From: Methanobacteriota archaeon
GTDB taxonomy: Archaea; Thermoplasmatota; Thermoplasmata; SG8-5; JACRNV01
Length of the DNA: 58,066 bases
Direction: 5' to 3'
NCBI GenBank assembly: GCA_016214785.1
Contig: JACRNV010000028.1
Coordinates: 138,523-196,588, forward strand
The position numbers were made by a program, and so were the translations under genes. A model generated the notes under the pieces. It made no database searches, was not told the origin of the DNA, and saw nothing but the letters and a program-made list of their open reading frames with translations. Positions 358 through 48,029 of this stretch are shown piece by piece. Numbering within the stretch: the first letter of the stretch is position 1; each line of letters starts with the position of its first letter.

Positions 358-3030
358 ATGAAGAAAGATGTGAGAAATGGGAAGCTTAGTGGCAAGGTAC
401 TGAGTACGGTCCTTGTGATAGCGATGTGCCTGAGCGGCTTCGTCTTTCTGGCCAACCAGACAAAGGCCAGCGGCGTGAGGGAAGAGAAGATGCTGAGGAT
501 CGCCATGCAGGACGACATGAAGACGCTCAATCCGCTCGCCTCCAGCGACGTCTGGACGGCGAACGTCCTGAACTGGCTATGGGACAGCCCGATCTACGTG
601 GACCCCGAGACCGACAAGCTCGTTCCGTACTTGGCGAACGGGACCACCAACGTCACCGTGGACAGCTACTTCAACTTCGACGACCCGAACACCCTGGATG
701 CCAGCGAGCTCGCCAAGTCCCCGGTCGGAAAGGTGTGCACCGTATGGTACAACTTCACGAAGGCCAAGTGGCACGACGACTTGCCCATAACCGTAGAGGA
801 CATCCTCTTCGCATTCTACGCCCAGGCCGCGCTGCCTGGATGGGGGACGAGCGTCGCCTGCCTCAAGGACAAGGGTGGCGAGGCTGGCAGCAACTACAGC
901 ACCGACCACTACATGTTCATCAACCCCGTCTATATAAGCCCGGACGGAAAGATTGTGGGAATCAGGTTCTACCTGCAGACGAACTACGCAGAGTTCCTGA
1001 GGAACACCCTCTCGGTCTTCCTGCTGCCGATGCACATATGGTCGACGACTGTCTCCGGCCAGGCCAGCGACGACGTTCGGCCATGGTTCCCGAAGGGGGA
1101 CGCAAGGGAGTGGAAGTCCGACGTTGCCGAGAAGTGGGACGGCAAGGTCAACGGCGTGCCGAAGGTCGTTGGCAACGGGCCGTTCAAGTTCATCTACTGG
1201 GACAAAGGCCAGAGGTCCAAGATCGAGACCTGGCGCGACCACTTCTACAGCAAGCAGCCGATAATCGACAGCATCCTCTACGTCATCTTCAGGACCCCCG
1301 AGCAGGCCGTCCTTGCCCTGCAGAACAACGAGGTGGACTACATCGCATGGTCCATCCCGCCGAGCTTCATCAGCGAGATGCAGCAGGACGAGAATATCGG
1401 CCTCAGCCAGTCCGCAGAGAGGGGATTCTTCTACATGGCCTACAACATGAGGCGCCCGAGCTTTGGATACGACGCCGCTAGCGTGGACAAGGCCGTCGCC
1501 TTCAGGCGCGCGGTCGCCCACTGCGTCGACAAGCAGTACATCGTCGAGCGCCTGCTCCAGAACTACGGCGTCGTCGCGCACGGCCCCGTCAGCTCCCTGG
1601 ATACTGAATGGTACAACGACAGCCTCGTGAAGTACGCGTTCGATGTGAAATCCGCGATAGAGGTCCTTCAGCAGGCCCACTATGTCGAGCCTGACTGGAG
1701 CAACGCGGCAACGCTCGGGACCGCCGCGAACTGCTGGAAGAACTCCGACGGATCGAACATCGGCTCAGAACCCGACGGCAAGATAAAGATACTGACGCCC
1801 CAGGGCGACTACGACCCGGTGAGGTACCAGGCCGGCATCATGATTGCCAACAATCTAAAGAAGGCGGGCATATACGCCGAATCGGTCCCAATGGACTTCG
1901 GCAGCATCGTCGAGAAGATCAACGCCCACGAATTCGATATGTATATATTGGGCTGGAGGATCGGCTCCGACCCGACCGACTTCCTGTGGGCGTTCTTCCA
2001 CTCGGCCGGGACGCAGAACTACCCCGGTTACCACAACGCGAGCTTCGACACGATAATCGATGAGGCCAGGGACACGACCGACCTGAACGTCAGGCACGAG
2101 AGGGTGAAGCAGGCGACCGGCGTCATAGCCATGGACCAGCCGTACCACGTGCTCTACTTCAGGCAGAACATAGAGGCCTACAGGGCGGACAACTTCGTCG
2201 GCTGGAAGGTCGGCTCGTCGGGAACCATCCTGAGCTGGAAATCGCTCCTCGAGATCCACCCGCCGAGCACGAAGTACCTCCGGGTGCAGGTCTCAACCGA
2301 CTCCGCCGTGGTCTCCAACGGAACGGCGGAAGTCACGGTGACCGTAAGGGACCAGGACAAGAACCCGGTGGCCGACGCCACAGTGGTCATGGACGTCACC
2401 GAGGGGAACCTCTCCGCCAAGACAGGCACGACCGACTCCAACGGACGCTTCACGGTGACATTCTCGGCCCCGTATGTAAGTGGCTGGAATAATACAACTG
2501 AGAAGGAAGTGGGAATATCCGTGGCAAGCGCGTCCAAGGAAGGTTACGACATTGCGCCGGGCAAACTTGTGCCAATTTCCATCGTCAGGGCGGACGTCGA
2601 CTTCCTGGCCCTGAAGATTGAGCTCGACACCGATGTTGTCAACGAGAAGGAATCGACGTCGTTCACGGTGACGGTGAGGAACGGCAGGCTCGCGAACAGG
2701 CCTCCGGTCGAGGGCGTGGCGCTCACTGCACAGGCTTCCGGAACGTCCAAGGTCACGCCGGCGACAGCTACGACAGACGCAGACGGCAAAGCGACGTTCA
2801 CTTTCACCGCCCCTGACGTAGAGGCGAACACGCCGTTCGAGGTGCTGATAAACGCGGAGCTGGCCCCGTACCTGCCTGGCGCGCAGCCAGTCCAGATAGA
2901 CGTCCTCCCGGTGATAATCCCGCCTGATGGCAATAATCACAACTGGCTGCCTTCGCTCGAACCTATTGTCATCATAGGTCTCATAGCCGCGGTCACGGTC
3001 GTCGCGGTAGCGTACAGGCGCAGGAAGTAG
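358..3030 (+). CDS. Oligopeptide ABC transporter substrate-binding protein with Ig-like domains and C-terminal membrane anchor
   Basis: This protein (890 residues) captures peptides outside the cell for the permeases encoded next. After an N-terminal signal or anchor segment (about residues 12-37) comes a family 5 solute-binding domain (DppA/OppA type, about 40-635), recognisable from phrases such as GNGPFKF and the LNPLASSD start. Two Ig-like (Big-type) domains follow (about 640-850), each with a V-x-V-T-V strand and a TTDxxGxxTxTF ending. A single transmembrane segment (about 866-886) and an RRRK tail close the chain. A typical family member ends after about 550 residues, so the Ig domains are an addition that probably lifts the binding domain through the cell surface layer. 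It is the first gene of a seven-gene operon. The family call is firm; the substrate is inferred. Confidence 0.9.
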   Translation: MKKDVRNGKLSGKVLSTVLVIAMCLSGFVFLANQTKASGVREEKMLRIAMQDDMKTLNPLASSDVWTANVLNWLWDSPIYVDPETDKLVPYLANGTTNVTVDSYFNFDDPNTLDASELAKSPVGKVCTVWYNFTKAKWHDDLPITVEDILFAFYAQAALPGWGTSVACLKDKGGEAGSNYSTDHYMFINPVYISPDGKIVGIRFYLQTNYAEFLRNTLSVFLLPMHIWSTTVSGQASDDVRPWFPKGDAREWKSDVAEKWDGKVNGVPKVVGNGPFKFIYWDKGQRSKIETWRDHFYSKQPIIDSILYVIFRTPEQAVLALQNNEVDYIAWSIPPSFISEMQQDENIGLSQSAERGFFYMAYNMRRPSFGYDAASVDKAVAFRRAVAHCVDKQYIVERLLQNYGVVAHGPVSSLDTEWYNDSLVKYAFDVKSAIEVLQQAHYVEPDWSNAATLGTAANCWKNSDGSNIGSEPDGKIKILTPQGDYDPVRYQAGIMIANNLKKAGIYAESVPMDFGSIVEKINAHEFDMYILGWRIGSDPTDFLWAFFHSAGTQNYPGYHNASFDTIIDEARDTTDLNVRHERVKQATGVIAMDQPYHVLYFRQNIEAYRADNFVGWKVGSSGTILSWKSLLEIHPPSTKYLRVQVSTDSAVVSNGTAEVTVTVRDQDKNPVADATVVMDVTEGNLSAKTGTTDSNGRFTVTFSAPYVSGWNNTTEKEVGISVASASKEGYDIAPGKLVPISIVRADVDFLALKIELDTDVVNEKESTSFTVTVRNGRLANRPPVEGVALTAQASGTSKVTPATATTDADGKATFTFTAPDVEANTPFEVLINAELAPYLPGAQPVQIDVLPVIIPPDGNNHNWLPSLEPIVIIGLIAAVTVVAVAYRRRK

Positions 3031-3089: not shown

Positions 3090-5039
3090 ATGAACCTAAA
3101 GAAGTACATAGCCTGGAGGGTGGTGCACATGATAGTCACGATGTTCATCGTGATAGTCCTCCTGTTCCTCCTCTTCAGGCTGATGCCCGGGGACGCCGCT
3201 TCGCAGCTCATGCTGCGGCCGGGAATAACCGCAGAGGTAAGGGACCTGGAGCTCGTCCGGCTCGGCTTCAAGAAGTGGATTCCGTACCCGGGGAGCTACT
3301 ATATCGGCACGTACCAGACCATCGAGCCTGGCGAATATTCGTTCTATGTCACGGCCTTCGACCGATCGGGCAACAGGAACGACATCAGCACAACGGCCCT
3401 CGTCAGGACGGACCCGTCGAGGGACTACCAGTCCCCGCTGATATCGGGTTTCGCGGCGGACCCGCCGAGCCCGGACCTCAACGCGACCGTATATCTGAAC
3501 GTGACGATATCGGACGCCTCCAGTATCAACAGGGTCATGATCGAGGTGCACACGCCCGCCGGCACGACGTCTTTCGCACCGATGACGTTCGTCAGCACGG
3601 GGTTCTACACCTTTTCAATGCCGGTCCAATCGGTCGGAACATACAACGCCATAGTCCAGGCGCAGGACAAGGAGGGGAACTTCGCGACCGGGTCCTTCGG
3701 CTTCGCGACGAACGGCACGGCGGCTCCCCAGTCCCTCTACTACCTCGTCTCGAGCCAGCCTGTCCCCACAAGGGGGCAGGCGACCACGATATCCGTCATG
3801 TACAATGGCACGGGCATGCCCAGCCTGACGATGACCGGCCCGGACGGGGCCGTCTCGGCCGCCCAGGCGATGTCCCCCTCCGCGGGCGCATACTCTGTCG
3901 ATATTACCCCCGCCAAGGCCGGGTACAATGTAATCAACGTTACTGACGGAACGGTCTACGCGCGGACGAGGCTTGTCGTAAACCCGCCGTCGCAGGCGGC
4001 CCCGTCGCCGGGGAGCAGCACCGCGCAGCCGGCCTTCTCCGGCTTCGTCATAGAGAGGACGGACGGCGGGGACGCGTCGTACCCGTACATGCTCACATCG
4101 GCCTCCGGCGTCAAGGTGAACGCCAACGTGACGATAACGGCCAGCGCCGGCCTCACGAACGCCTCGCTGGTGATAGTGCCGCCGAACGGCGTACCGACAG
4201 ACCCTCCGAAGACGATGGCGCACCCGCAGTACACTATCAACACGGAGCTCTGGGAGCAGTTCGGGGCGTACATGGTCCAGATGGCGACTCTGAACTTCGG
4301 GACGTCGTTCGAGAACAGGCAGCCCGTTTTGGACAAGATGGCCGAGCGCATCCCGCCGACGCTGCTGCTGTTCGGCAGCGCGCTGATCACCGAAACGCTC
4401 TTCGGCATCTTAATAGGTGTCATACTCGCATGGAGGAGGGGCTCCGCAATGGAGATAGGGACGATCATCGTCACGCTCTTCTTCTGGTCCATGCCCATAT
4501 TCTGGTCGGCCCTGATAGCGCAGTGGATATTCTTCGTCAACCTGGGGTGGTTCCCCCTGTCGAAGATGACCAGCGTCAATCCCATCACGGGCCAGGCTTT
4601 CGTCGGCCTCGAGTACTTGAAGGACCTCATATGGCACCTGGCGTTGCCGCTAGCGGTGCTCACAATCCTGGGTCTGGCCGGCACCATCCTGCTCATGAGG
4701 ACCTCGATGCTCGACGTGATGGGCGAGGACTACATCACGACAGCCAGGGCCAAGGGCCTCAAGGAGCGCACGGTCGTCTACAGGCACGCGGCCAGGAACG
4801 CCCTCCTGCCCGTTGTCACAGCTCTAGCGATGCATATAAGCGGGGTGATAAGCGGAGGCGTGCTCACCGAGACGATCTTCTCGTGGCCCGGGATGGGCTC
4901 GCTGCTCATCTCGGCGACTATGCAAAAGGACTTCCCCGTCGTGCAGGCGGCCTTCGCGCTCCTTGCGTTCATGACCATCCTAGGCAATATGCTGGCGGAC
5001 GTCCTGTACGCCTACCTGGACCCCAGGGTGCAATTGTGA
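3090..5039 (+). CDS. Oligopeptide ABC transporter permease (DppB/OppB type) with inserted Ig-like domains
   Basis: Membrane subunit of the peptide importer. The first transmembrane helix (about residues 8-32) ends in RLMPGD, as in DppB proteins. The extracellular stretch that normally runs directly into the next block is here expanded by roughly 300 residues (about 65-375) of beta-rich Ig/FN3-like sequence, including a YSFYVTAFDRSGN strand pair. The canonical protein resumes near residue 379 (QFGAYM, LNFGTSF), followed by five further helices. The EAA loop that contacts the ATPase is intact (DYITTARAKGL, near 545). The protein has 649 residues; usual members have about 310-340. The insertion lies on the external side. 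The next gene starts within a dozen bases of the stop. Confidence 0.88.
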   Translation: MNLKKYIAWRVVHMIVTMFIVIVLLFLLFRLMPGDAASQLMLRPGITAEVRDLELVRLGFKKWIPYPGSYYIGTYQTIEPGEYSFYVTAFDRSGNRNDISTTALVRTDPSRDYQSPLISGFAADPPSPDLNATVYLNVTISDASSINRVMIEVHTPAGTTSFAPMTFVSTGFYTFSMPVQSVGTYNAIVQAQDKEGNFATGSFGFATNGTAAPQSLYYLVSSQPVPTRGQATTISVMYNGTGMPSLTMTGPDGAVSAAQAMSPSAGAYSVDITPAKAGYNVINVTDGTVYARTRLVVNPPSQAAPSPGSSTAQPAFSGFVIERTDGGDASYPYMLTSASGVKVNANVTITASAGLTNASLVIVPPNGVPTDPPKTMAHPQYTINTELWEQFGAYMVQMATLNFGTSFENRQPVLDKMAERIPPTLLLFGSALITETLFGILIGVILAWRRGSAMEIGTIIVTLFFWSMPIFWSALIAQWIFFVNLGWFPLSKMTSVNPITGQAFVGLEYLKDLIWHLALPLAVLTILGLAGTILLMRTSMLDVMGEDYITTARAKGLKERTVVYRHAARNALLPVVTALAMHISGVISGGVLTETIFSWPGMGSLLISATMQKDFPVVQAAFALLAFMTILGNMLADVLYAYLDPRVQL

Positions 5040-5049
5040 GGTGAACAAC

Positions 5050-7302
5050 ATGGTTACAAGCAAACAGATGGTAGAGAAATTCAGGGACTACAGGCGCTCG
5101 TTCATCCACAACTGGAGGCTCTTCAAGGAGAGCAAGATCGGCCTTGTGGGATTGGCCGTACTGATATTCTTCTCGCTGATGGCCGTCTCGGCGCCGTTCC
5201 TCGGGCTCAAGCACCCCGTCGACTGGATGGCCCCCTCGACGGACATCCTCGAGGTGGACAAGTACTTCCAGGTCGAGAACCTGACTGGGCCGGTGAACCA
5301 TTCGGTCGGGTACCGCATCAGGCCCGCGGCCCTTGACGCCAAGGCCGACAGGGTGTACGCCGCCTACGGGAACTCCGTAACCGCGATACGGCCCAATGGC
5401 ATATCGCTCTGGACGTACAGGGCGACGGACGCCAGCCTCATCACCACAACGCCCATCGTGCAGAACATAGGGAACCGCGTGGACCCCAACCGGCAGGAGC
5501 AGCGCATTGCGTTCGGGACCCTCGAAGGGCGATTGTACGTGCTCAGGGACAACACCGCAGAGGGCTCGGCATCCCGCCCGACCGGAGACAACGTCTACAG
5601 GACCGACCCGCTCGGCGGGGCGATCATGAGGAACCCAGCGTTCTACAACAATGACACGCTTGGCTTGTACGGGGACGACCGGTTATTCGTGACGACCGAA
5701 AGCGGTATGCTCTACGCGTTCTCGCTGCAATACGATTACGACCCCCTTACCCAGGTTTACTCCGCCACGTCTGCGAGGCTCAACCAGGCCTGGTCGGTCC
5801 AGGTGTCTAACGCGAGCCTCGGCGCGCCGGTCGTCTCGATCCGCAACATGACCGTCCTCGTCTCCGACAGGGTCGGGAAGATATACTCGTACTCGATAGC
5901 CAACGGCATGCCCATGTGGCCCGAACCGTACGACGCTGCGGAGCCAGTCTCATCCGACCTCGTGCTCGCGAAGCCATCCGACGGCGATGTGGTATTCCTG
6001 GCCACCGACCTCGGCAGGCTGCACTGCGTGAATGTTCCCGACGGTACACCTTACACCTCCAACTGGACCGGCGGGATGCTGCTCATGAAGGACTTGACCA
6101 CGGCGGACGAGGGCCCGTTCAACACCCCAACGACGACTAGCGACGGTTCCGAGGCCTACGTGACATCGCGCAGCGGGTTCTTCTACGCCATCACGATCGA
6201 CTCGCAAACCCAGAAATGGACATACGACGCCACCGAGGGTGGCAGGGTGCCGGGCGCGACCTTCGACTCCTCCGCATACTACGACACGAGGTACTCGAAG
6301 GGCGTCTACGCGGTCTCGCGCGTCCCGGGCAGCCCGGGCGACCCGACCGACGACTACTCCTGGCTTTACAGGTTCACCAACGACTCCCTCTACAGCTGGC
6401 GGCTCCAGCTGCCAGGGGCGGTCTATGGCGGAGCCGTTCTATACTTCGACAGCGACACCTCCCACCTAAACCCCTCTGTCTGGACGGGGACAGCCGCCAG
6501 CGACGGGACGGGGGTAGTCTATTCGTACAGCTGCACGGGCAGCTACCTCGCGCCTCTTCCACCGACATGGGTGACGAACGCAAACAACGCGGACGCGAAG
6601 TTCCAGCCCCCCAAGAGCGGCAACTACTACATCTTCGGCACGGACACGCAGGGCAGGGACGTCTTCAGCCAGACCATATGGGGCTCGCAGATTGCCCTGA
6701 TGGTCGGGTTCTCGGCGGCCTTCTTCTCCATAGCCATCGGGATAGTCATTGGGCTCGTCTCGGGATACTACGGCGGCAAGGTGGACAGCGTGCTCATGAG
6801 GTTCACCGATGTCATACTGGTCTTGCCCGGCCTTCCCCTGCTGATCATACTGGCGGCCTTGCTATCGCCGAGCATATGGAACATAGTGCTCATCATCGCT
6901 ATCGTAGGGTGGGGCGGCATCGCCAGGGTCATCAGGGCGGAGGTCCTGAGCCTGAAGGAGAGGCCGTTCATAGACTCCGCGAGGGTCTCGGGCGCGAGCA
7001 AGGCGAGGATCATGTTCAGGCACATTGCGCCGAATGTCCTGCCGCTGGCCATGCTGTATATGACTTTCGGCGTCAGCGGCGCCATCCTCTCCGAGGCGGC
7101 GCTGAGCTTCATAGGCCTCGGCGACCCGAGGACCATGAGCTGGGGCATCATGCTCCAGGCAGTGTCGAACCAGAACGCGCTGGCGAACTGGTGGTGGCTG
7201 CTCCCTCCGGGCTTATGCATTACACTGGTCTGCATGGCGTTCTTCCTGATTGGGCGGGCGTTCGACCAGATAGTCAATCCGCGGCTGAGAAGGAGGAGGT
7301 GA
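5050..7302 (+). CDS. Oligopeptide ABC transporter permease (DppC/OppC type) with inserted PQQ-like beta-propeller
   Basis: Second membrane subunit of the importer, 750 residues where the family usually has about 280-300. The first helix (about 30-50) is followed by an external insertion of about 450 residues that reads as a PQQ/WD-like beta-propeller (about 95-510): repeated blades with A-x-x-x-N-G-x-x-L-W or W-x-Y-style strands and paired GRLY/GMLYAF motifs. The canonical DppC sequence resumes at GTDTQGRDVFS (near 530), with the later helices and an EAA loop (SARVSGASKARI). ATG 5050 is preferred over GTG 5041 because GAGGTGA at 5038-5044 then serves as ribosome site. It overlaps no gene, and the next start is five bases past its stop. 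Confidence 0.88.
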   Translation: MVTSKQMVEKFRDYRRSFIHNWRLFKESKIGLVGLAVLIFFSLMAVSAPFLGLKHPVDWMAPSTDILEVDKYFQVENLTGPVNHSVGYRIRPAALDAKADRVYAAYGNSVTAIRPNGISLWTYRATDASLITTTPIVQNIGNRVDPNRQEQRIAFGTLEGRLYVLRDNTAEGSASRPTGDNVYRTDPLGGAIMRNPAFYNNDTLGLYGDDRLFVTTESGMLYAFSLQYDYDPLTQVYSATSARLNQAWSVQVSNASLGAPVVSIRNMTVLVSDRVGKIYSYSIANGMPMWPEPYDAAEPVSSDLVLAKPSDGDVVFLATDLGRLHCVNVPDGTPYTSNWTGGMLLMKDLTTADEGPFNTPTTTSDGSEAYVTSRSGFFYAITIDSQTQKWTYDATEGGRVPGATFDSSAYYDTRYSKGVYAVSRVPGSPGDPTDDYSWLYRFTNDSLYSWRLQLPGAVYGGAVLYFDSDTSHLNPSVWTGTAASDGTGVVYSYSCTGSYLAPLPPTWVTNANNADAKFQPPKSGNYYIFGTDTQGRDVFSQTIWGSQIALMVGFSAAFFSIAIGIVIGLVSGYYGGKVDSVLMRFTDVILVLPGLPLLIILAALLSPSIWNIVLIIAIVGWGGIARVIRAEVLSLKERPFIDSARVSGASKARIMFRHIAPNVLPLAMLYMTFGVSGAILSEAALSFIGLGDPRTMSWGIMLQAVSNQNALANWWWLLPPGLCITLVCMAFFLIGRAFDQIVNPRLRRRR

Positions 7303-7306
7303 TGGC

Positions 7307-8332
7307 ATGACGCTGCTAGAAATCAAGGACCTGAAGGTCTACTTCACCATAATGAGGGGCAAGGTACAGGCCGTGGACGGCGTGTCCTTCGCCATCGACA
7401 GGGGCGAGACGCTCGGGCTCGTGGGCGAGTCCGGCTGCGGCAAGACCACGACGGCATTCGCGATAACGCGCCTGCTCCCGAACAACGCAGAGATTGTCGG
7501 AGGAAAGATAACCTTCGACGGCATCGAGATAGCCGGGAGCGACGTTGAGAACGCGCTGCCGAACAGGAAGAAGCCCAAGTACGTCGAGACCATGATGCGC
7601 GACGTGCGCTGGAAGCAGATATCGATGATATTCCAGAGCGCGATGAACGCGTTCAACCCGGTGCACAGGGTCGGCGACCAGATAGCCGAGGCCATCCTCG
7701 CGCACGAGAAGATGACGAAGGAGCAGGCCCGCAAGAAGGTCATCGAGCTCTTCAAGCTCGTCGGCCTCGACGTCGGCAGGATAGACGGGTTCCCGCACGA
7801 GTACTCGGGCGGGATGAGGCAGCGGGCCATGATCGCCATGGCCTTGGCGTGCAACCCGAAGTTCATCATCGCCGACGAGCCGACGACGGCGCTGGACGTC
7901 GTTATGCAGGACCGCGTCCTGGCGGAGATAAAGTCCCTCCAGAGGCGCCTAGGGATTGCCATGATGATCATCACGCACGACATATCCGTCGTGGCCGAGG
8001 TCGCGGAGAAGATAGGCATCATGTACGCCGGCAAGCTCGTGGAGTACGGCGACATAACCGCGGTCTTCGAGCGCACGTCCAACCCGTACTCGATAGGCCT
8101 GATGGCGTCGTTCCCGAGCATAGAGGGGGAGAAGAAGCCCCTCTACTCGATACCGGGATCGCCGCCGGACCTGTCCAACCCGCCGTCGGGATGCAGGTTC
8201 CACCCGAGGTGCAGGTTCGCCAAGGACGTGTGCAAGGAGAAGGAGCCGGAGATGCTCGAGGTCGAGCCCGGGCACCTGTCCGCGTGCCACTTCGCGTACG
8301 AGATATTCAACGGCCGCCTGGGAGCGGGGTGA
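7307..8332 (+). CDS. Oligopeptide ABC transporter ATP-binding protein, DppD/OppD type
   Basis: Cytoplasmic ATPase that powers the peptide importer. It has a Walker A (GESGCGKTT, near residues 40-48), signature ([12 protein letters not shown]), Walker B ([12 protein letters not shown]) and H-loop (ITHD). The C-terminal oligopeptide-family extension carries cysteines in [15 protein letters not shown] and a later ACHF, the pattern that binds an iron-sulfur cluster in some OppD/DppD proteins. Length (341) is normal. GGAGGAGG lies just before the stop of the preceding permease and the ATG follows five bases later, indicating translational coupling. Confidence 0.95.
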
Positions 8333-8336
8333 TGCT

Positions 8337-9410
8337 ATGGCAGACGACACAGTGATAGGGACGGTCAACCTGAGGAAGTACTTCCCGGTGAAGGTAGGGA
8401 TGCTGAAGTCCCTGCTGAGCAAGGAGGAGCTGTTCGTGCACGCGGTGGACGACGTCTCCTTCGAGATACGCAAGGGCAAGATACTCGGCATGGTCGGCGA
8501 GTCCGGCTGCGGCAAGACGACGGTGGGCAGGCTGCTGACGAGGCTCGAGACGCCGACAGGCGGCCAGCTCCTCTTCCACGGCGAGGACATCGCCATGAAG
8601 AAGGGCAGGCAATTGAAGGACTTCAGGCGCAAGGTGCAGATGGTGTTCCAGGACCCGTACGAATCGCTGAACCCGAGGTTCACGGTCTTCAACACGGTCT
8701 CGGAGCCGCTCATCGTGCACGGCGTCGGGGAATCCTACGAGGAGCGCACGGACATGGTCGCCAAGGCTTTGGAGTACGCCGAGCTCAAGCCCGCAACGGA
8801 GTTCATGCCCAGGTACCCGCACGAGCTGAGCGGGGGCCAGAGGCAGCGCGTTGCCATTGCCAGGACGCTGGTGCTTAGGCCCGAGTTCATAGTGGCCGAC
8901 GAGCCCGTCTCCATGCTGGACGTGTCGATACGCGCGGGCATCATGAACCTGATGCTGAGCCTGAAGAACAGGTACGGCATACCGTTCCTCTTCGTCACCC
9001 ACGATGTCTCGGTATCGAGGTACATGAGCGACGAAATCGCGGTCATGTACCTGGGTAACATCGTCGAGTACGGCCCGAGCGAGGATATTATCAAGGATCC
9101 CTACCACCCCTACACCAACGCCCTGCTCTCTGCGGTGCCGATACCCGACCCCACGATAAAGAGGGGCAGGACGCAGATCAAGGGGGACCTGCCGAGCCCG
9201 ATCAACCTGCCGTCCGGATGCCCGTTCCACCCGCGCTGCCTCTTCGCCAAGGAGATATGCAAGGAGAAGAAGCCCGCCATGCGCGAGGTCAAGACCGGCC
9301 ACTTCGTGCAGTGCCACTTCGGCGGCGACCTGGACTTCGGGGCAGAGGCCGCTGCAACGCTGCAGGAAGTCCAGAAGCGGTTGGAAGGCTCCTCGCTGAT
9401 GTCCGCATGA
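8337..9410 (+). CDS. Oligopeptide ABC transporter ATP-binding protein, DppF/OppF type
   Basis: Partner ATPase of the preceding gene; the two form the nucleotide-binding heterodimer. It shows Walker A (GESGCGKTT), Q-loop (MVFQDPYESLNPR), signature (LSGGQRQRVAIAR), Walker B (FIVADEPVSMLD) and the four-cysteine C-terminal pattern (GCPFHPRCLFAKEIC and QCHF). The QDPYxSLNPR motif and position after the DppD gene support the OppF/DppF assignment. The start is five bases after the previous stop. Length (357) is slightly longer than usual because of a short insert before the Walker A (LLSKEELFVH). Confidence 0.95.
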   Translation: MADDTVIGTVNLRKYFPVKVGMLKSLLSKEELFVHAVDDVSFEIRKGKILGMVGESGCGKTTVGRLLTRLETPTGGQLLFHGEDIAMKKGRQLKDFRRKVQMVFQDPYESLNPRFTVFNTVSEPLIVHGVGESYEERTDMVAKALEYAELKPATEFMPRYPHELSGGQRQRVAIARTLVLRPEFIVADEPVSMLDVSIRAGIMNLMLSLKNRYGIPFLFVTHDVSVSRYMSDEIAVMYLGNIVEYGPSEDIIKDPYHPYTNALLSAVPIPDPTIKRGRTQIKGDLPSPINLPSGCPFHPRCLFAKEICKEKKPAMREVKTGHFVQCHFGGDLDFGAEAAATLQEVQKRLEGSSLMSA

Positions 9411-9417
9411 GGGGCGT

Positions 9418-9972
9418 ATGAAATCCTCGTGGCGCGAAGGGCGAAGCGTCCTCAACCTGATAGCGGTGCCGTTCGCGGTCATCGCCCTGCTCTCGACGTA
9501 CGGACTGTACGCGACGATGAACAACTACGCCATGTCCACCGAGACCACCTTCAATGCGGCGTCGGACTTCAGCGACGTCACCCTCTCCTTCGAGCCGAAC
9601 GGCGACGCCGTCATCTACATGACCCTCACTGTACAGAACAACCGGTCCAAGCTCGCGCTGAGGCTCAACACCGTCGTATGCCGCCTCTACACGACCGACA
9701 CGGACGACAAGAACTTCGTAAGCATAGGGTCGCGGAGCTTCCTGGAGGTGCCCGAAGACGCGTTGGTCCCGGCGGGCAGCAGCCGGTCGGTGCAGATAGA
9801 GGCCAGGGTGAAGGCCGACACCAACGCGATGACGAAGTTCCAGAGCGCGCAGATAGGGCAGGGCTACGTGCTTACCATGATGGGCGAGGTCAGGTACAAG
9901 CTCGCGGATTTCCCGGATGTAAGCGACATGACGTTCGCCTTCGGGCACGCGGTGGTGGTGCCCAGTGGATGA
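9418..9972 (+). CDS. Membrane-anchored protein of unknown function in the transporter operon
   Basis: A protein of 184 residues with one N-terminal transmembrane segment (about residues 11-31) and a beta-rich external part of about 140 residues. The pattern (FEPNGDAVIYMTLTVQN, later VPAGSSRSVQIEARV) resembles LEA14/WHy-type or Ig-like beta sandwiches, but I cannot assign a family. It begins eight bases after the ATPase gene and its stop overlaps the start of the next gene, so it belongs to the operon and is probably an accessory of the importer. Confidence 0.75.
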   Translation: MKSSWREGRSVLNLIAVPFAVIALLSTYGLYATMNNYAMSTETTFNAASDFSDVTLSFEPNGDAVIYMTLTVQNNRSKLALRLNTVVCRLYTTDTDDKNFVSIGSRSFLEVPEDALVPAGSSRSVQIEARVKADTNAMTKFQSAQIGQGYVLTMMGEVRYKLADFPDVSDMTFAFGHAVVVPSG

Positions 9973-10564
9973 TGCCTCCGAGTCGAGCGTCCAAAACACC
10001 GGCCGCGCCAGCCTTGCGGCGCGGCTGATGCTCGTCTCCCTCGCAGGGGCGGTGATTATCTCGTTCCTGTACGTGACTGTCCAGCTCAAGGCCGTCGCCT
10101 CCCTCTACATAAACGACACCATGATAGCCATCGGCCCGATCGTGTGCGGCTTTTTCGTCGGCCTGCTCCTCTCCGAGCACGAGGTCCCGATAATGGTCCT
10201 CGCGTCGACATTGGTCACGATTTTCTCGTCGGTATTCGTCGCTGTCGCGCTCTTCGCTCCCCCGATATGGGGCGTCGCGGAGGCGCTGCCCGCGTACTAC
10301 TACGACGTCTTCGGCAAGGTCGCGCTCTCGGTCATACTCACCTACTCGCTGACTCTGGTCGGCTCCGTGCTGGGCAAGATTGCCGGCGATGCCATTATGC
10401 CCTCGGCGGACAAGATGGAGAGGGACAGGCTGCGCGCCGAGACCCTGGAGTGGTACAGGATGCTAGAGACCGTCGAAGGCGACAAGCTCAAGTCGAAGGG
10501 GGCGCCGAAGCCAGGGGAGGGCGAAGACGCTCCACAGCTTGAAAAGGGCGAGTCAAAACGATAG
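9965..10564 (+). CDS. Four-helix membrane protein of unknown function in the transporter operon
   Basis: A protein of 199 residues starting at GTG 9965, overlapping the preceding gene by eight bases. It has about four transmembrane helices (around 20-45, 50-65, 75-95, 115-140), then a charged cytoplasmic tail rich in E and K. The ORF is the last of the seven co-oriented genes and the next gene is convergent. No family is recognised. Coupled translation with its neighbour suggests that the two proteins form a unit. Confidence 0.7.
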   Translation: MDDASESSVQNTGRASLAARLMLVSLAGAVIISFLYVTVQLKAVASLYINDTMIAIGPIVCGFFVGLLLSEHEVPIMVLASTLVTIFSSVFVAVALFAPPIWGVAEALPAYYYDVFGKVALSVILTYSLTLVGSVLGKIAGDAIMPSADKMERDRLRAETLEWYRMLETVEGDKLKSKGAPKPGEGEDAPQLEKGESKR

Positions 10565-25582: not shown

Positions 25583-28500
25583 TTACTGCTTCATCACGCG
25601 CTCGACGTTCCTGTCGTACAGCTCCTTCGATATCTTCCCGTCGTCAAGGGCCTTCCTGAGCTTCGCGATGCGCTCCTGCTTGACCGGGTCGAGCTGGGGC
25701 TCCGCGGGGGCTTCGGGCTTCGGCTCCCCGGGCACTGGCTCCGCAGGCGCAGGGGTCTCCTCGGGCTTGGCCTCCTCGGCCGGAACTGGCTCTGCCGGCG
25801 CCTCCGCGCCCGGCTCCACCGCAGCCTCCCCTTCCACTGGGGGCGCCTCGCCCTCCGCAGCGGGCACGGCCTCTCCCTCGACCGGCGCTGCCCCTTCAAC
25901 CGGAGGCGCTTCCGCGACAACCTCCGCCTCTGGCGCCGGCTTCGGGCCCATGTACTTCCACAGCAGTATCCCGACTGTCAGGCCGATCGCGAGCAGGCCT
26001 ATCATCAGGCATATCGCAGCCCAGTTCGTGCCGCGCGCCGGCTCGTAACTAAGGGTCAGCGTCCTCTGCGCCTCGTTGCCCGCGCGGTCCTTGGCCGTGA
26101 CGGTTATGGCGTTCGCGCCGTAGCTCAGGGATATGCCCGTCACAGTGAACCTGCCGTCGGACGAGACGTTGGTCTGCTTGCCGTTGACGTAGACGGTCGT
26201 GCCTGACTCGGCCCTGCCGGAGATGTCGATGGCCGATGACGTGGTCTTCGTCGGGACGTCGTTCAGCGCTATCTGCGGGGCGACGGTGTCGCGGGTTATG
26301 TTGCGCCAGTACGACTCCGAGTTGCCTGCAAGGTCGCTGACCGTTATCTTCACAACATTGGCCCCCTCCGAGAGGTCGACCCTGTGGGAGATGGTATAAT
26401 CCGATTGGAGCACCGCGGGGACGCCATTCACGGAGACGGAGCCCGCCTCGGAGGCCTTGCCCATGACGTACATGAAAGGCTGGCTTGTTACGCTGCTCGT
26501 AGAGGTCGTGAGGTCCTTAATCGTCGGGCCCGCGTCATCGAGGACTATCCTGCGCACGAGATTGGCCATGTTCCCAGTGCCGTCCGTGGCGGTCACGATG
26601 AGCTCGTTCGAGCCGTCCAGGAGCGTGACCGTGGACACGAACGCGTTGTCCGTCTGCATGCCCACCTGGTACTCGATCGAGCCGACGAAGACGCGCACCG
26701 TCGCGCCTGGGTCGTTCGTCCTCCCCTTCACGGCGAAGGTCCCGTTTGGAACGGACACGTCCGAGGCCGGCGCTTCCATGGTGATCATCGGCGCGTTCGT
26801 GTCGACCGTGAATCCCCACACTGCCTCGTTCAGGTTCCCGGCCTGGTCGCCGCACATGGCTTTAACGATGTGCCCGCCCTCTGCCAGGTCGTACTGCGGA
26901 TCGAACACTATCGAGCCGGCCCAGACGCCCTGCGTGCCCGCGGTGTTGGCGCTTTTCTCGGCCGACGCCTTGGCTATCCCGGTGATGTCTAGCCCATCGA
27001 GGTATATCTTCAGCGTCCCCTTGTCTATCTCGCCCATCTCGCTGTCGTCGTAGACGCACGCAACACGCTGCCTCGGGTCGGATATCTTGCTGTACTCCGC
27101 CGGCGTCTGGGACGTGAGCCTGGGCGCCTGTCGGTCAAGGACGATGTCGATTGGGACGACGAGAACCTCCCTCGAGTAGTTCGTGCCAAATGACAGGATG
27201 CCGCCGTATGAGCCGTCCGTGCTGCTTGCCGGGGGGAAGTTCCAAAGGACGTCGAATTCCGCGGTCGTGAAGTTGCTGACGGTCTTGTTGTGGAGGACGA
27301 TTGAGTTGGCTGGGTCGTAGTCCTCGAGGTTGCTGCCGAGGTTGAAGCCCTCGACGCCCTTCCGGATGGTCTTGATGTCCAGCGTGAAGTGGCCTGGGCT
27401 GCCCGTTACCGTGTAGCCGAGGACCTTGACGATGTAATTTCCATCCGGCGGTCCGATGAGCTTCACGGCCTCGTCCGCGTCGGCGTCGCCGCAGTACCCG
27501 AAGGACCCGGTGCCGTAGGTCGATTTGTAGGCATCGATGCTGGTCACGAGGGCCTTGTCCACAATCTCATTCCACTGGGCTTCACCATCTTCGACACCGG
27601 TTTTATATCCATCCTTAAATATGGCAAGGTCGAGGTCTGGGCACTGGTCGTCGCCTATTATGTGGACGTCCAGGCTCAGCGCGCCCTCCACCTTGACGAC
27701 CTTGGTGAACTTCGAGCTCGCCAGGAGCGTGAACCAGTCCTCGTAGGTCTCCTGCGGCAGGAGAACGTCCGCGTAGGCTTCCTCCGTCGTCTTTGTCCCG
27801 GACGCGGGGCCGACCACGGAGGCTATCATCCCGTCCGTGAAGTTCAGGTTGGAGGTGAACGTCACGGGCATCTCGCCGGACATCTCCTTGGTGCTCATCC
27901 TGGGCTGCTTGTCGCTCAGGACAAGCATCCCGCCGTTCCCCGTGAAGTTGGCCTGCTCTTTGCTGCCGTTCAGAACCCTCGCGCGCAGCATGACCACGTT
28001 CAGCTCCGGGGCGAAGGTCCCCGTGATGGTCTCGTTGGCCCCGCCCGATGACGTCATGTAAAGCGCCGTCGCCTGCGAGGGCGGTCCCTTGGCCACCTGC
28101 GCCAGCGAGAAGGGCGCGGTCGTGCCCGAGGCCCCGAGCTGGTCCCTGCCGAAGACCGAGGCGTCGATGTCCGTCGGGACGTCCTGCCACTTCACGTTTA
28201 GCAGTGTCTTGACGTTGTCAGTGTCCAGGTGCAGCCCGTGAGGCGGTATGTCGACATAGAAGTACCTCCGGTCGCCGCTGAATGGGTTCAGCTCTTCCTC
28301 AGATAGCCTCTGGCCGTTGCCCCCGCCCAGCGAGGTCGGGGAGTTGAGGGTGTTGTCGGCCGGGCCTCCGAACTCGTAGCGCGAGGTCTGGCCGGCGCCG
28401 ACGTTTATCAGCACGGGCACGGTGGTCGTCTTCGCATAGTACGTGTAGGAGATGTTGACGAACTTCCACGGCGCCAGCGGCACCTTGAGGAACACGCCGC

Positions 28501-31500
28501 CTGTCACGCTGTAGATGGTGTAGTCCGGGGCCGCGAGGGTAGCGGTCGTCATGTTGTTATCGTCGTAGAGCCTTACGGAGATGCCCGATTCGAGGAGCCT
28601 TAGGTTCGCGGCAACGAGCGTGACGTCGATGTCCACTGGCGCGTAGGAGTAGGCGACCATGACGGTCGAGTTCTGGCCCACCTCGTCGCCGGGGTTGAAG
28701 ACGATGGTTCCGTTGGCGTAGAACATCGTGTAGTTGACGCCCCGGACGAGCTCGGCGACGGTCTGGTAGGGGTCGACGAAGAAGCCCCTGCCCGCGGTGG
28801 GTGTTCCAGATGTGAAAGCAACATATCCTGTTGTTGCATTGATTGTATATGCCCAGCCCCAATCACTGAGTAGGTACCATTCCCCTGAGTAGAAAACTTT
28901 CAATCTAATGTCAGTAATATCGCTAGAAATATTAGTATAAGGTAGGTAGAATCCCCACGGTACAGTTTCATATCCCGTTGTTCTATAAATGTAATTGTCT
29001 AGATATGTATAGTTAGCGCGTATTATCCACCCTGCCCCGAATGTACCTAAAAAGGTAATCGTTCCTGCTGAATAGTCCGCTGTGTAGTCCACTCCTTCGA
29101 TGATGGTATAATATGTGCCCATATTGTCATCAGCGTATCCATTGAATGTGAGCAATTCAATACCGCTCATGCTCGCATTTAGGACAATGGTATCTGTATC
29201 GCCACCAACAGCTGTCCATATGACTTTTTTTGTATATGTGTATGGTTGGCTCTGATGTTGTAGATAGTAATATGTTCCGTTGAATTTAACACCGACAGGT
29301 AATTCAAAGTCAAATGGTTGGATGATAACCGCACCTGTGTTTTTCTCGATTGTATACTTGCTTGGATCGAGGACGACTGTCGTTCCATCCGCCGGGTTGA
29401 ACATAGTCATGCTCAGGAATCGCGTGATGTTTACAAACCGTTTTGAAGATGGGCGGTTCGTTTCAGTCATATAGAAGGATTGAGGAGTCCCTGCAGGCGT
29501 GACAACCGTTGTTGAGAGGATCGTGAAATTTTCTTTGAAATCTTCCTCGCTAATGCTTGTCGGAACTCTATTTTCATATCGTTTCACACCCTCGTTGGGC
29601 CGGACACTACCATGCGCGAGCGTTCCCACAAGTTGGTCCTGCATCGTGAGCCTCTCCGCAGACTCGCTGTATTCCGGTATATAGTATGTGTAGCTCGCTG
29701 TGACGATATCTGTTGCTGGATTGATGGGGTTCGTGAAGGTGATGATGCCCGTCAGCCAGTCGAGGGAGTAGCCGACCGGATTGACGGACAGCCATTTGTG
29801 AGTGAAGTTGACATAAAATTCAGAGCCCGATTGGAGGCCGGTGGAGACATTGGCATTCAAAACAGTCACGTAACCTGTCTGCATGTCCATCCAGAAGTCT
29901 GCCGAACCGTTGTAATACACATAAATTGGCAGGCCGACTAGGGCAACTATGCCGTTGAGCGTGATGCTCGACCACCTGAGGTCTACAGTGTAATCGATTC
30001 CTTCAACAAGCTGCAACCATGTGCCTGTATTATCTACCCAAACGCTGCAGTTCAAGAATGTCGGAGAACCAGGGCCGGAAAGGTTGTAGTAGTCCCACCC
30101 GTCGCCAATTACGCCCAATGGAACCTGGCCGGAATCGAGTCTGGAGATGTCGTCCCATTCTGGGTCCAGGCACCAAGTGCCCTGTTCGGAATCGGTGATG
30201 TTATAAAATGGATATATGTCCCAGGGGAAACCATCAATTGCCATCCAAGGTGAACTAAGCGTGATGTCGCCTGTGGTCAGGGTAATGTTATAATCGATGC
30301 CCTCCGTGAGCAATGCCCAATTCTCATGCGTGGTGGCGGGGGTGGTATTATGGGCATATAAAGTACAATTAACCACTCCCGGCTGCCCTAGATTAAAGGC
30401 GTCCGTTCCAGTCGATGTGGAAATAATCCACGACGAATTAGTGGATTGTAAAACGTTGACAGGATGGTACCATGAGAATTGCTGCAGCGCCTCCGCCGGT
30501 ATGTAGGGTAGAGAGAACTCTACTGGCGTGTTCATGGGAATCTGCGATTGGGTGACGAATACCGCGTTGTTGTCCACCGCATCGTTCCTGTACGAGACCC
30601 ATCCGACCTCGGGATTTGTGGGGGAGTAATTCCATAGGCTGAGCGTCCCCACTCTGTCATTTCCATGGTCGAGGATGCCTGATGTCGAACTCAAGAGAGT
30701 TACCGTCTCGTCTGTCACGCTCTCCGTCTTTGGCGCGTACAGGGTCTCGTCCGCAACGGCCTGCGGTTTGGAGAGCAGTTTGATGGCGCCGCTGTACGAG
30801 CCCGGGAGCGCGCCCTGGGGCACGTTGGCCGTGGCCGTGAAGCCTGCCGTCGCGCCGCCCCCGATGTTGGTCGGCGCGCCCGAGACAGAGAGCCAGCTCC
30901 AGCTCTGTGGATAGTATCCCGTGAAGTAGATTGTCCATGTGGTGGTGTTCGTGAGCATTATGCAGTCCAGCTTGAGCCAGAGCCCGGCCTTCAATTTATA
31001 AAGGGGCTGGCTCATCTCCAGCGTGAGGACATTGGACTCATAGTCCGTCTTGTCCACGAAAGTGCCGTCGCTCGCGACGAAGGACATCTCGTATTCCTCT
31101 ATCGGAGACGGATTGTATAACGTCTTGTTGTCCTGGACGTACTGCCCATAGAACTCCGCCGCGTCTGTCATGGCCTTGATCTTGAGCAGGGAGACGTTCT
31201 GGGAGACCATGGCCGTGAGGTTGACCATCAGTGGCTCCGTTGTGTTGACGAAGGTGTGGTTTACGACGGCGCTCCAGACAGCCACATGGTTCTCCGCAAG
31301 CACGTTGGTATTCGTGGCGGCGCCGATGTTCTTCGCCGTGAAGTTTTCGGAGGCAGACGACCCCGGGGGCATTATCTCGGGGTACGAGGCGTAGTTGTTG
31401 TTGTAATATATATCTGGTACGAACGAGTTGTTCCTGACGCTCAGGCCGTCAAGCCCAAGCGCGAACCGCACCGCGGCCTCGGCATTCAGGTACCCCGCGC

Positions 31501-34500
31501 CCTGCGACAGGACGTCGTAGCTGACGTCGTCGGCCGTGGACATGAGGATGGAGGTCAGCTCCCTCCTGTCCGGAGCGGTCGCGTACTTCTTCACGTAGGC
31601 CTCGTATGTGAGGGCCGCCACGCCCGCGGTGACCGCCGCCGAAACCACCGACCCTATCATCTCGTCGTTGTTGTTGGGGTGGTCGCCTGTGATGCCCTGC
31701 TGCAGGAGCGGCAATGTGACGAAGGCGTTGCCCACTGCAAGCAGGTCGGGCTTGGCGCTCGCCCCCGCCGATGGCCCCCTCGAAGAATATGTGGCCGGCT
31801 CGCCGTAAACATGCTGCAGTATGAACTCGTTAGTGTTGTACGCGTTGTCGGTCGCGGCCCCGACCACTATGGCGTTGTGCGGTGCCGGGGAGGCGATCGT
31901 GCCGTACCCCGGGCCGTCGTCCCCGGCGGGGACGATGAAGGTCACGGTGTTGTTGAGCTTTTCAACGGCCATGTAGTCTATGAACTGGGAGACATCGTCC
32001 AGCCCGCTGTTGAAGGAGGACGCGGAGGCGCCGATGTAAATTATATTGGCATTGTCCGACGGATCGGTGAGGTTGTAACCTTCGGAGAGGAAGGTGATGG
32101 AGTTCTTCATGTCAAGGTCGGCTCTCGCGGTGGCCACGAGTTTGACGCTGGGGGCGATGCCGAGCCTCTTCCCGTAGTCGTTGCTTTGATTGCCCCTGCC
32201 TGCGATGATGGCCGCGGCCATGCTCCCCTGCATAATGGGGACCGAGTGGTCGGCGTCGTACTCGAACTCGCCGAAGAGGCAGACGATCTCCCCGGCCTGC
32301 GGAATTGGCATCGGGTTCTCGCTGCTGAAGGTCATCTTCTGAAGCTCGGCAATCCTCTGCGAGTACGGGATCGGGTCCTTGCCGTTGCCGATGAAGTAGA
32401 CGATACCGCCCGATTCGTCGGGAATGCCATCTCCCGAAGGGTCATAGGCGACGAAAGGGTTGGCCTTGGTGGCGATTGGGTCCTTGGCGTCGAACACATA
32501 GTCGGCGTTCATGTCAACAATCACCGTGTCGTACACACCTGCTGTGTTCGCATCGACCACGAGCACGCCGGGCCAGTTCTCATCCCCGACCATCTTGCCG
32601 AGCGTCTCGCTCGGGTGGTATCCGAAGTGGTATTTTGGCGGGACGCTCTTCGACACCGGTATCGCCGATGAGTTGATTTTGTTCTCGTTGAACTCCACGC
32701 GCCCGAACCACGACATCGATCTGGTCTGCGTCGAAGTGAAGTCGACGTAAGGTGCCATGTTAGGGTCCTCGGGGACCATGTCCTGGGGGACGCTGGGGGT
32801 CCTCTCTGCGGAGAATAGCTTGAGGTCTATAGTCTTTCCGCCATTGGAGTAATTGGCGAAGTGTCTCCTTGGGATGCCGAGCTCCATGAACCCACTGCCA
32901 GTGTAGTCGCCGGCCGCAAACCCCTTGTAGAAATACTGTATTTCGAGGTTGGTCGCGTTTGTCTGGTTCCATGTGTTCGAGGTCGCGTTCCACATGTATA
33001 CGCGCGGCTCGAAGACCTTGTCCTTGGTGTCTATCACGGCCTTCCCCTTGTCGTCGAGCTTGAAAGTCTCCGCCTGGAAATCGATATATATCACCATGTC
33101 TGGCTTGTGCGTGATGTATGGCACATAGGGGCCCCCACCGGTGTTGTAGAGGCGGATGGACGCGTCAGTGCTCCCTACGTAAATCTCGTTCCCGGTTTCG
33201 CCATAGGATATCGCGCTGACCCGGTGGTTGTACCTGTTGTCTATCTCGCCGGTCACAAGATAGGTGGACGGGTTTATCAGGGTCAGGTTGCCGTTCGAGG
33301 AGCCGACGACTATTTTCGTGGCGTCCCAGAGGATGTTCGAGATGGCATATGTTCCTGGGTTTGCGAATGTCAGCCATCCTTCTAACTTGGATGGTACTCC
33401 ACCAACGTCCCAGAGTAGCAACCGCCCATCATCCCCCGCAGAGGCGAGCTTCGAGTCGTCCAGGCTCCATGTAAGCGAGCGAATCGGGTATGTTGAGCTA
33501 TGTCCGTTCGTATCGTTGGATGGGATTATGGAATCGATGGAGAAATCAGAGGTCAGGTATATTTTTATTGCACCATTGCCCAGCCCCACTGCTAGCTTGT
33601 CACCTGCATTTGAAAAGGCCACGCCATACACATCGCCCCCCGCGCTAGTCTCTGTAACATTGAGCCCGGTAGTGTAATTAATAACCTTGAACAATTGGGT
33701 GGTGGTTCTCGGGATGGCGATCCAGGAATTGGTCTTACTCGCCGAGAGCCCGTTCTTTATACTTTCAGTTTTTGTTGTATCAATCGTGTACAGGAGAGCC
33801 CATGTGTTCGCATTCCAGATATACGTGTTTAACTTGTCCGCCCCTATCAGGTAGTTGCCGTCCGGGCTCCAGGCCAGTGAATGAATGGCCTCCGTTGGCC
33901 CGGTGATAATCCGCTGCACGACGCCGGTCCTGTTCCATATCCAGATGGCTCTATTGTCTGGAGCCATGTTGTCCAGAGAGTCTTTCTTCCCCTCGGCAGC
34001 GCTGGCCAGCAGGTCCCTACCGGGGTGGTACGCGAGAGTGTCAACTGTGTTCGTATGCGCGGCATCGGTGTCTATGTAATACCCAGCCGGGTCGATCGTG
34101 CCGCCGCTGGTTGTGTTGTCGACATCGATATATATTCCAAAGGTCTTATTGACCTGCGCGAACCTGGAGTCGAACCCGATATACCAGTTCTGGAAGTCCC
34201 TCGAAGCCATCATCCTCTTAAGGTCGAAATCGTACTTGTAAGAGCCGACAAGGTTGTTGCCGTCCCAATATTTGGACTTGGAATCCTCTATCTCGATGCC
34301 AGACAGGTATTGGATGTCCCTGGAGCTGAAATCGTTCCTTCCATCAATTTTAATAGTCTTGAAGTACTCGAACGGCCCGGTGCCGTTCGCGCTCGTGTTC
34401 GAGTACCAGTTGCTGCCCGAGACCTCCCTGGCGGCCAGGTAGCTGCGCAGGGAGATAGAGTCGAACGCGACGGGCCATCCGTTGTAGGGGGAGGACGGGT

Positions 34501-34933: not shown

Positions 34934-35305
34934 TGTCCTACCTCCGTTAATCTAGGCCCACCTCTCCCTATTGCATGCTAATATAAAAGATATTCGGCCT
35001 TCGGTCAATTGATGCCGCGATTTCGTTCAAGGGGATTGCGCAAGACTCTTTTCTGAAAACGGAAATTGGCAGAACTCGATAAAGCATTTTGCGTGACCGC
35101 TCGGGCTGACTTTCCTTGCTGCGTTTGATTGGGGCAATGCTGGAAAAGGCCAATTTTCGGGGGAGCAGAGGCATGCCACGCCATCACACAAATTTTATAT
35201 AGTGATAATAGTATATCATTTAGACGATATGTATGCGGTGCGTGTGGGCAACGCCGCAGCGCATGTGTATCTAAATATATATCGAATGGAGGAGGGACCG
35301 TACAG
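34934..35305. promoter_or_regulatory. Divergent promoter region between the two subtilase genes
   Basis: Leftward TATA-like box (ATCTTTTATATTA on the minus strand, 34978-34990) lies 45 bases before the giant gene start. Rightward boxes are TTTATATA (35194-35201) and TAAATATATA (35272-35281), the first giving a leader of about 85 bases. A strong ribosome site GGAGGAGGG (35288-35296) precedes ATG 35306. No small gene is supported in this region. Sharing one region suggests joint control of the dead and the intact subtilase. Confidence 0.5.
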
Positions 35306-40290: not shown

Positions 40291-40483
40291 TTTTCATTAT
40301 TTGTTTCTTAAATGGATATGGGAGATATATATTCCGTTATGTACATTACTGTACAAACAAACATTTATATATGACGCTATCGATTAAGTGAAACAAGACT
40401 GACCTCCCATATCTCATTGCGCCTGAAGGGATGCGAGACATTATCAGGCTTTGCCCGGGGGTCCGAGTAACGGAGGGAAAGGG
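40291..40483 (+). promoter_or_regulatory. Promoter of the C11/M14 giant protease gene with paired TGTACA and an inverted repeat
   Basis: TGTACA at 40340-40345 and 40350-40355 lies seven bases before the TATA-like box ATTTATAT (40363-40370). The same TGTACA, seven bases, ATTTATAT spacing occurs before the transporter operon. A 10-base inverted repeat GATATGGGAG (40315-40324) and CTCCCATATC (40404-40413) flanks the box. GGAGGG at 40472-40477 is the ribosome site for ATG 40484. Confidence 0.5.
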
Positions 40484-47812: not shown

Positions 47813-48029
47813 CCTTCCTTTGACAACAAGGGTTGCGGCTCATGATAATTGTGGAATACAATGTGAATTCCTGGGCGTTTTTAGTAAAAGCGCCATCGAG
47901 GACGCGCACTGATATATAACAATGTTCTTATACATGTGTGTCAATATCTGACATAGCCGCGGGCTGGATAAGCTGGGCAGCTTATTGTACCTGGATGCCG
48001 CGCGCATCGCCCGCGATGGAGGAATGGAG
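47813..48029 (+). promoter_or_regulatory. Promoter region of the adhesin-like gene
   Basis: GATATATAA at 47911-47919 and TTCTTATACAT at 47925-47935 are two TATA-like boxes about 95-120 bases before ATG 48030. GGAGG at 48018-48022 is the ribosome site; its spacing favours ATG 48030 over the ATG at 48024. No other structure is seen. Confidence 0.45.

Follow-up and report, generated by a model that had tools for sequence, protein, structure and literature searches.

The locus raises the question of whether a β-propeller can be a genuine part of the membrane subunit of a peptide importer and, if it is, which role it could play there. The operon concerned lies in a 58,066-nucleotide stretch of DNA from an uncultured archaeon, called the window here; coordinates are collected in Table 1. 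By gene content, the operon is a complete peptide ABC importer, with a substrate binding protein (SBP), the permeases DppB and DppC, and the ATPases DppD and DppF, the same five genes as in DppABCDF and OppABCDF of E. coli (PDB 8z1v and 8z21). The DppC and DppB cores align with those of 8z1v with E values of 3e-44 and 1e-48, respectively, and the scoop region is retained in the DppB of the window. Two ORFs for small membrane proteins complete the operon (22–26% identity to the copies in relatives); it is possible that they are extra subunits of the importer.

Table 1. Features of the importer operon (positions in the window)
Feature	Position	Strand	Evidence and remarks
SBP, DppA/OppA-like, 900 aa	328..3030	+	SBP_bac_5 E 7.8e-43; Big_1 E 8.6e-17, two stretches
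SBP Ig-like (Big_1) stalk, ~225 residues	~2248-2922	+	Pfam
DppB permease, 649 aa, Ig-like insert between TM1/scoop and TM2	3090..5039	+	BPD_transp_1 E 2.9e-37; BPD_transp_1_N E 8.6e-6
DppB scoop-motif region, residues 33-62 (~E. coli DppB 32-60)	3186..3275	+	phmmer against 8z1v_A, weak, 2.6 bits
DppB Ig-like insert, residues ~63-375	3276..4214	+	AlphaFold2, Foldseek, Big_13
DppC/OppC permease with propeller insert	5050..7302	+	750 aa; ORF opens at GTG 5041
DppC TM1, residues ~32-52	5134..5196	+	OppC_N at residues 25-54; AlphaFold2 helix 32-50; preceded by Lys/Arg-rich N-terminus
DppC extracellular β-propeller insert, residues ~61-525, strands 81-495	~5221..6615	+	PQQ_2, AlphaFold2, Foldseek (BamB), orthologue alignment
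DppC core, GTDTQGRDVFS to C-terminus	6637..7299	+	BPD_transp_1 at residues 567-751; 8z1v_B E 3.1e-44
DppD ATPase	7307..8332	+	ABC_tran and oligo_HPY
DppF ATPase	8337..9410	+	ABC_tran and oligo_HPY
Small membrane protein	9418..9972	+	No family match; operon position conserved, fast-evolving
Second small membrane protein	9965..10564	+	No family match; operon position conserved

Assignment of the permease

The ORF of DppC (5041–7302, plus strand) is uninterrupted over 753 codons. The true start is probably ATG 5050, immediately past the stop codon of DppB, because the MVTSK encoded there begins nearly all close orthologues in the alignment. The first helix matches OppC_N (26.9 bits; cut-off 23.9) and the C-terminal part matches BPD_transp_1 (97 bits, above cut-off). 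The operon supplies the expected partners, an SBP of family 5, DppB and two oligo_HPY ATPases. The usual length of OppC proteins, about 290–340 aa, is a common rather than a defining feature and is far exceeded (753 aa). Matches to the OppC-type equivalog models of NCBIfam begin at about residue 498 and fall short of cut-off. Judged by its sequence, the protein is a DppC/OppC-type permease of a type I peptide ABC importer.

Structure and location of the insert

Residues 61 and 518 of DppC align with residues 59 and 63, respectively, of E. coli DppC (8z1v_B). The window protein thus has about 460 residues where the 300-residue E. coli protein has roughly 4. A preliminary description had placed a propeller, in a single frame, after the first helix and before GTDxxGRD, and Pfam, the E. 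coli alignment and Foldseek bear this out. The boundaries it gave (5340–6580) fall within the insert, whose true span is slightly wider, and the GTD motif that it put near 6638 is found at 6637–6645.

Profile search and structure prediction, both suggested in that description as checks, agree on the fold. PQQ_2 matches the insert above its cut-off (36.0 bits against 27.6; E 7.5e-9), the best stretch being residues 308–414; Beta-prop_ACSF4 matches residues 238–397 (E 3.7e-10) under its own cut-off. AlphaFold2 was run on the window DppC and eight relatives with an alignment of these nine sequences only. In the model the insert is all-β, with block mean pLDDT of about 58–89 for residues 100–400 and about 53–68 for residues 400–500, moderate overall; confidence is poor in the permease core. 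The 29 strands predicted are compatible with seven to eight blades at this moderate confidence. A Foldseek search of the PDB with the insert model ranks BamB first (4xga_A, E 8.5e-15, target TM 0.70, 17% identity), and most of the top 15 places are BamB entries. With a profile match above cut-off and a closed propeller in the AlphaFold2 and Foldseek results, the insert belongs to the PQQ_2/BamB-like family. BamB itself is a lipoprotein of the outer membrane and part of the BAM complex, whereas the window propeller, at 13–17% identity, is found inside an archaeal permease. The label “PQQ-type” of the preliminary description holds for the repeat and fold family only, since no PQQ-dehydrogenase enzyme-family model is among the Pfam and NCBIfam matches of DppC; a reading as a PQQ-dependent enzyme was rejected on the same grounds.

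The N-terminus of DppC is rich in Lys and Arg, which by the positive-inside rule would place it inside the cell and the TM1–TM2 loop outside, in agreement with the external loop proposed earlier. Glycosylation sequons in the orthologue inserts (70 observed, 46 expected; none in DppD and DppF) agree modestly with an extracellular insert. We regard the fold of the insert and its extracellular site as near certain.

Conservation of the insert

A fusion of this kind could arise if a propeller gene and a permease had been joined in an assembly chimera or by an accident of frame, but nothing was found that speaks for either. The preliminary description proposed a search for the same fusion in related genomes, and full-length DppC with the insert is present in ten others at 46–50% identity; nine of these belong to the same order and one, G019, to the same class. 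They have the same junctions and operon. Where contigs allow, the order SBP, DppB with insert, DppC with insert, DppD, DppF and the two small membrane ORFs is shared. Among them is Ca. Proteinoplasmatales archaeon SG8-5. When named genomes were scanned with just the insert, the only matches were MAGs labelled Thermoplasmata, Methanomassiliicoccales, Euryarchaeota and Candidatus Proteinoplasmatales (SG8-5), and the named MAGs with the same insert were assembled independently. This conservation rules out misassembly, and the probability that we leave to a chimera or chance joining is negligible. The protein is thus a real, conserved variant of the OppC/DppC permease as far as sequence can tell; its architecture is seen directly, and the roles discussed below are proposals. 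A donor gene for the insert was not found in the window's own genome.

Inserts in related permeases

The propeller of the window DppC is not an isolated case, as DppB is decorated with Ig-like domains, DppC loops are decorated across Thermoplasmatota, and stand-alone propellers exist. OppC_N was searched in 150 genomes of the class. The best 150 frames, taken from stop to stop, are bimodal in length, with 70 at 250–430 aa and 76 of at least 430 aa; long OppC frames are found in other classes of the phylum too. Frame length was rejected as a measure of loop insertion, because the alignment showed an N-terminal extension instead in one clade (f5), and the modes were therefore separated by the distance from OppC_N to the core. 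This was measured in 104 DppC ORFs from operons chosen across the length range, not at random: 33 are canonical (4–30 aa), 48 have loop inserts (160–1296 aa), 18 have N-terminal extensions and 5 are intermediate. Members of f5 (including L111:14403-16190(-) and L107:9096-10856(-)) carry two N-terminal PKD-like domains and an extra TM in place of a loop insert, a different way of reaching the same result.

The decorated OppC proteins (L040/L041, L049, L005, L043 and L050-L052) have large domains in the same TM1–TM2 loop as the window DppC, but the domain type differs. PQQ propellers occur in L036, L043, L044 and L046, Kelch in L040, and CARDB, Flg_new_2, PKD and Big_7 in L049; some other inserts have no recognised domain. 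In L064 (5833-9036), the PQQ propeller is interrupted by Kelch repeats of about 300 residues, placed between residues 229 and 262 of the window protein. Unlike the window operon, most of the decorated operons elsewhere have a DppB without an insert, and their SBP stalks are much longer.

Another decorated peptide importer is encoded in the genome from which the window comes (contig C50, L005:1-9286). Its SBP has at least 1,948 aa, of which about 1,600 lie past the binding domain in an Ig/CARDB-rich stalk, and the insert in its DppC loop, about 475 aa long, has no Pfam match. In profile comparisons with the window propeller, the L005 insert scored 29% probability and that of the L050-L054 clade 4%. 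In the open-access literature, the part searched, we found no description of propeller-bearing peptide permeases, and within it the decorated importers of Thermoplasmatota are apparently a broad, undescribed set.

Stand-alone propellers

Four genomes (G009, G012, G011 and G006) encode propellers akin to the permease insert that are anchored by an N-terminal TM. Membrane-anchored stand-alone propellers were located at L150:2380-4005(-), L151:3781-5271(-), L152:1-1359(-), L153:3454-5718(-) and L154:3722-5857(+). The copy most similar to the permease insert of its own genome (62% identity) is in G012. In G060, a stand-alone single-TM protein (L155:5015-7459) has the same Kelch-in-PQQ arrangement as the permease of that genome (31% over 836 alignment columns). 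The existence of such versions indicates that the propeller is an autonomous module. In trees, the stand-alone copies cluster with permease inserts of their own lineage; a single stand-alone clade is rejected (p-AU 0.0007), and a PF09826 (Beta_propel) gene adjoins the copies in G012, G011 and G006. Taken together, these observations suggest that copying or gene conversion has occurred repeatedly between the loop of the permease and a distinct surface protein.

DppB, the SBP and other surface proteins

TM1 and the scoop of the window DppB align, weakly, with residues 8–60 of E. coli DppB, and the core resumes at residue 383, equivalent to E. coli 58. Because the alignment stops at E. coli residue 60 and resumes at 58, the insert of about 310 residues directly follows the scoop; E. 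coli DppB (339 aa) has no Ig insert. The DppB insert is β-rich in the AlphaFold2 model (block pLDDT about 50–88). Foldseek matches it to the Ig tandems of titin, fibronectin and filamin (E 1e-5 to 1e-4), and Big_13 matches below cut-off (E 5e-5). The SBP of E. coli is free in the periplasm, whereas that of the window is membrane-anchored on its Ig stalk by a C-terminus whose sequence is hydrophobic.

Elsewhere, the window encodes giant surface proteins. One of 3116 aa (25583-34933(-)) combines a WD40-type propeller, a subtilase (S8) and Ig-like domains; another of 2424 aa (40451-47725(+)) combines a clostripain (C11) with a zinc carboxypeptidase (M14). Both fit a protein-degrading lifestyle. 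Two more giant ORFs (35129-40192(+) and 47985-53279(+); 1687 and 1764 aa) have no strong Pfam match.

Possible functions of the inserts

Docking of the SBP by the DppC propeller, proposed in the preliminary description, is a reasonable idea, and docking or retention of the SBP is our best guess for its role. In the model that we favour, the DppC propeller and the DppB Ig insert would surround the outer mouth of the pore as a collar, which would keep and orient the tethered SBP above the pore and would seal a chamber between the two, as the MalF P2 loop likewise serves MalE. We give this extracellular collar an even chance of being correct. Archaea of this kind presumably lack an outer membrane that could confine SBPs or peptides, and uptake would therefore be higher with an SBP kept close to the pore.

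The collar is consistent with the position of the DppB insert next to the scoop, which in E. coli (DppB residues ~32–62) inserts into the DppA cleft (PMC12136057). DppB inserts longer than 150 aa occur in 10 of 45 operons with a DppC loop insert and in none of 44 without. The inserts of the two pore subunits have diverged (33% and 23% identity), with their cores kept (77% and 62%). The length of the DppC loop correlates with that of the SBP stalk across 51 operons (Spearman 0.83); the median stalk measures 28 aa where the loop is short and 664 aa where it is long. About two clades drive this correlation, and phylogenetic contrasts shrink it to r 0.3–0.4 (r 0.39, t 2.97), so the link is taken as supportive only and a strong “molecular ruler” was rejected. 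MalF P2 (residues 91–271 of the maltose importer MalFGK2) offers a precedent: it contacts MalE (PMC3150292), and it too is a large folded extracytoplasmic loop domain on a membrane subunit, as topology predicts for the DppC insert. MalF P2 is not homologous to the window inserts, and it differs in being the second periplasmic loop, without a propeller and in another subfamily; SBP contact is experimental for MalF P2 and proposed for the window. Against the collar, the window DppB has Arg/Pro where the E. coli scoop has its salt-bridge pair E41/R42, and the domain type of the OppC loop varies, so that no one binding surface is common to the whole phylum. The stand-alone copies also count against it, since they imply that the module can work away from the permease.

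Those copies lead to the main rival of the collar, in which the propeller is a ligand surface that captures peptides, part-digested protein or a peptidase, so that food accumulates next to the pore and the SBP takes the products. Propellers commonly bind peptides, and single-TM relatives as similar as that in G012 make a permease-independent partner probable. The giant S8 and C11/M14 peptidases of the window point the same way, as does the naming of the SG8-5 order for demonstrated uptake of 13C-labelled protein (PMC9123169). Stand-alone copies and peptidases together make direct peptide or protein binding credible, yet the insert type varies among lineages, and since BamB-like propellers bind both proteins and peptides, sequence does not separate capture from SBP docking. 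We consider the ligand surface possible but somewhat unlikely as the main role; SBP holding and direct binding may both be true.

The long SBP stalks, which scale loosely with the loop, would also suit a role of the inserts as anchors, binding the transporter to the archaeal S-layer or glycocalyx, or as spacers that raise the docking site to the height of that layer. PKD and propeller domains are carried by archaeal surface-layer proteins, according to a reference cited in PMC10354927. The propeller is compact, with little reach, and some clades with long loops have a modest SBP stalk (~300 aa), and an anchor or spacer role seems distinctly improbable to us.

A broader and speculative proposal, which we think rather unlikely in its full form, is that different ectodomains, from propellers and nested propellers to Ig/PKD arrays, are swapped in and out of the OppC TM1–TM2 loop and renewed by recombination with the stand-alone propellers of the cell surface. 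These ectodomains, a tall tethered SBP and the surface peptidases would together make up a pre-pore feeding station that selects what enters the pore, adding a level of specificity that bacterial Dpp/Opp systems are not known to have.

Conclusions

The solved Dpp/Opp importers have short outer loops; here, a protein-eating lineage of marine sediments has enlarged both pore subunits and the SBP. Relatives place quite different domains at the same OppC site and, in a striking case, nest a propeller in a propeller that is itself nested in a membrane protein. The decorated importers form a natural series of variants that could be used for tests of SBP docking. If the inserts bind substrate, they would add an unrecognised selection step to peptide importers. 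If they hold the SBP, they would help to explain how SBPs are retained in archaea without an enclosed periplasm.
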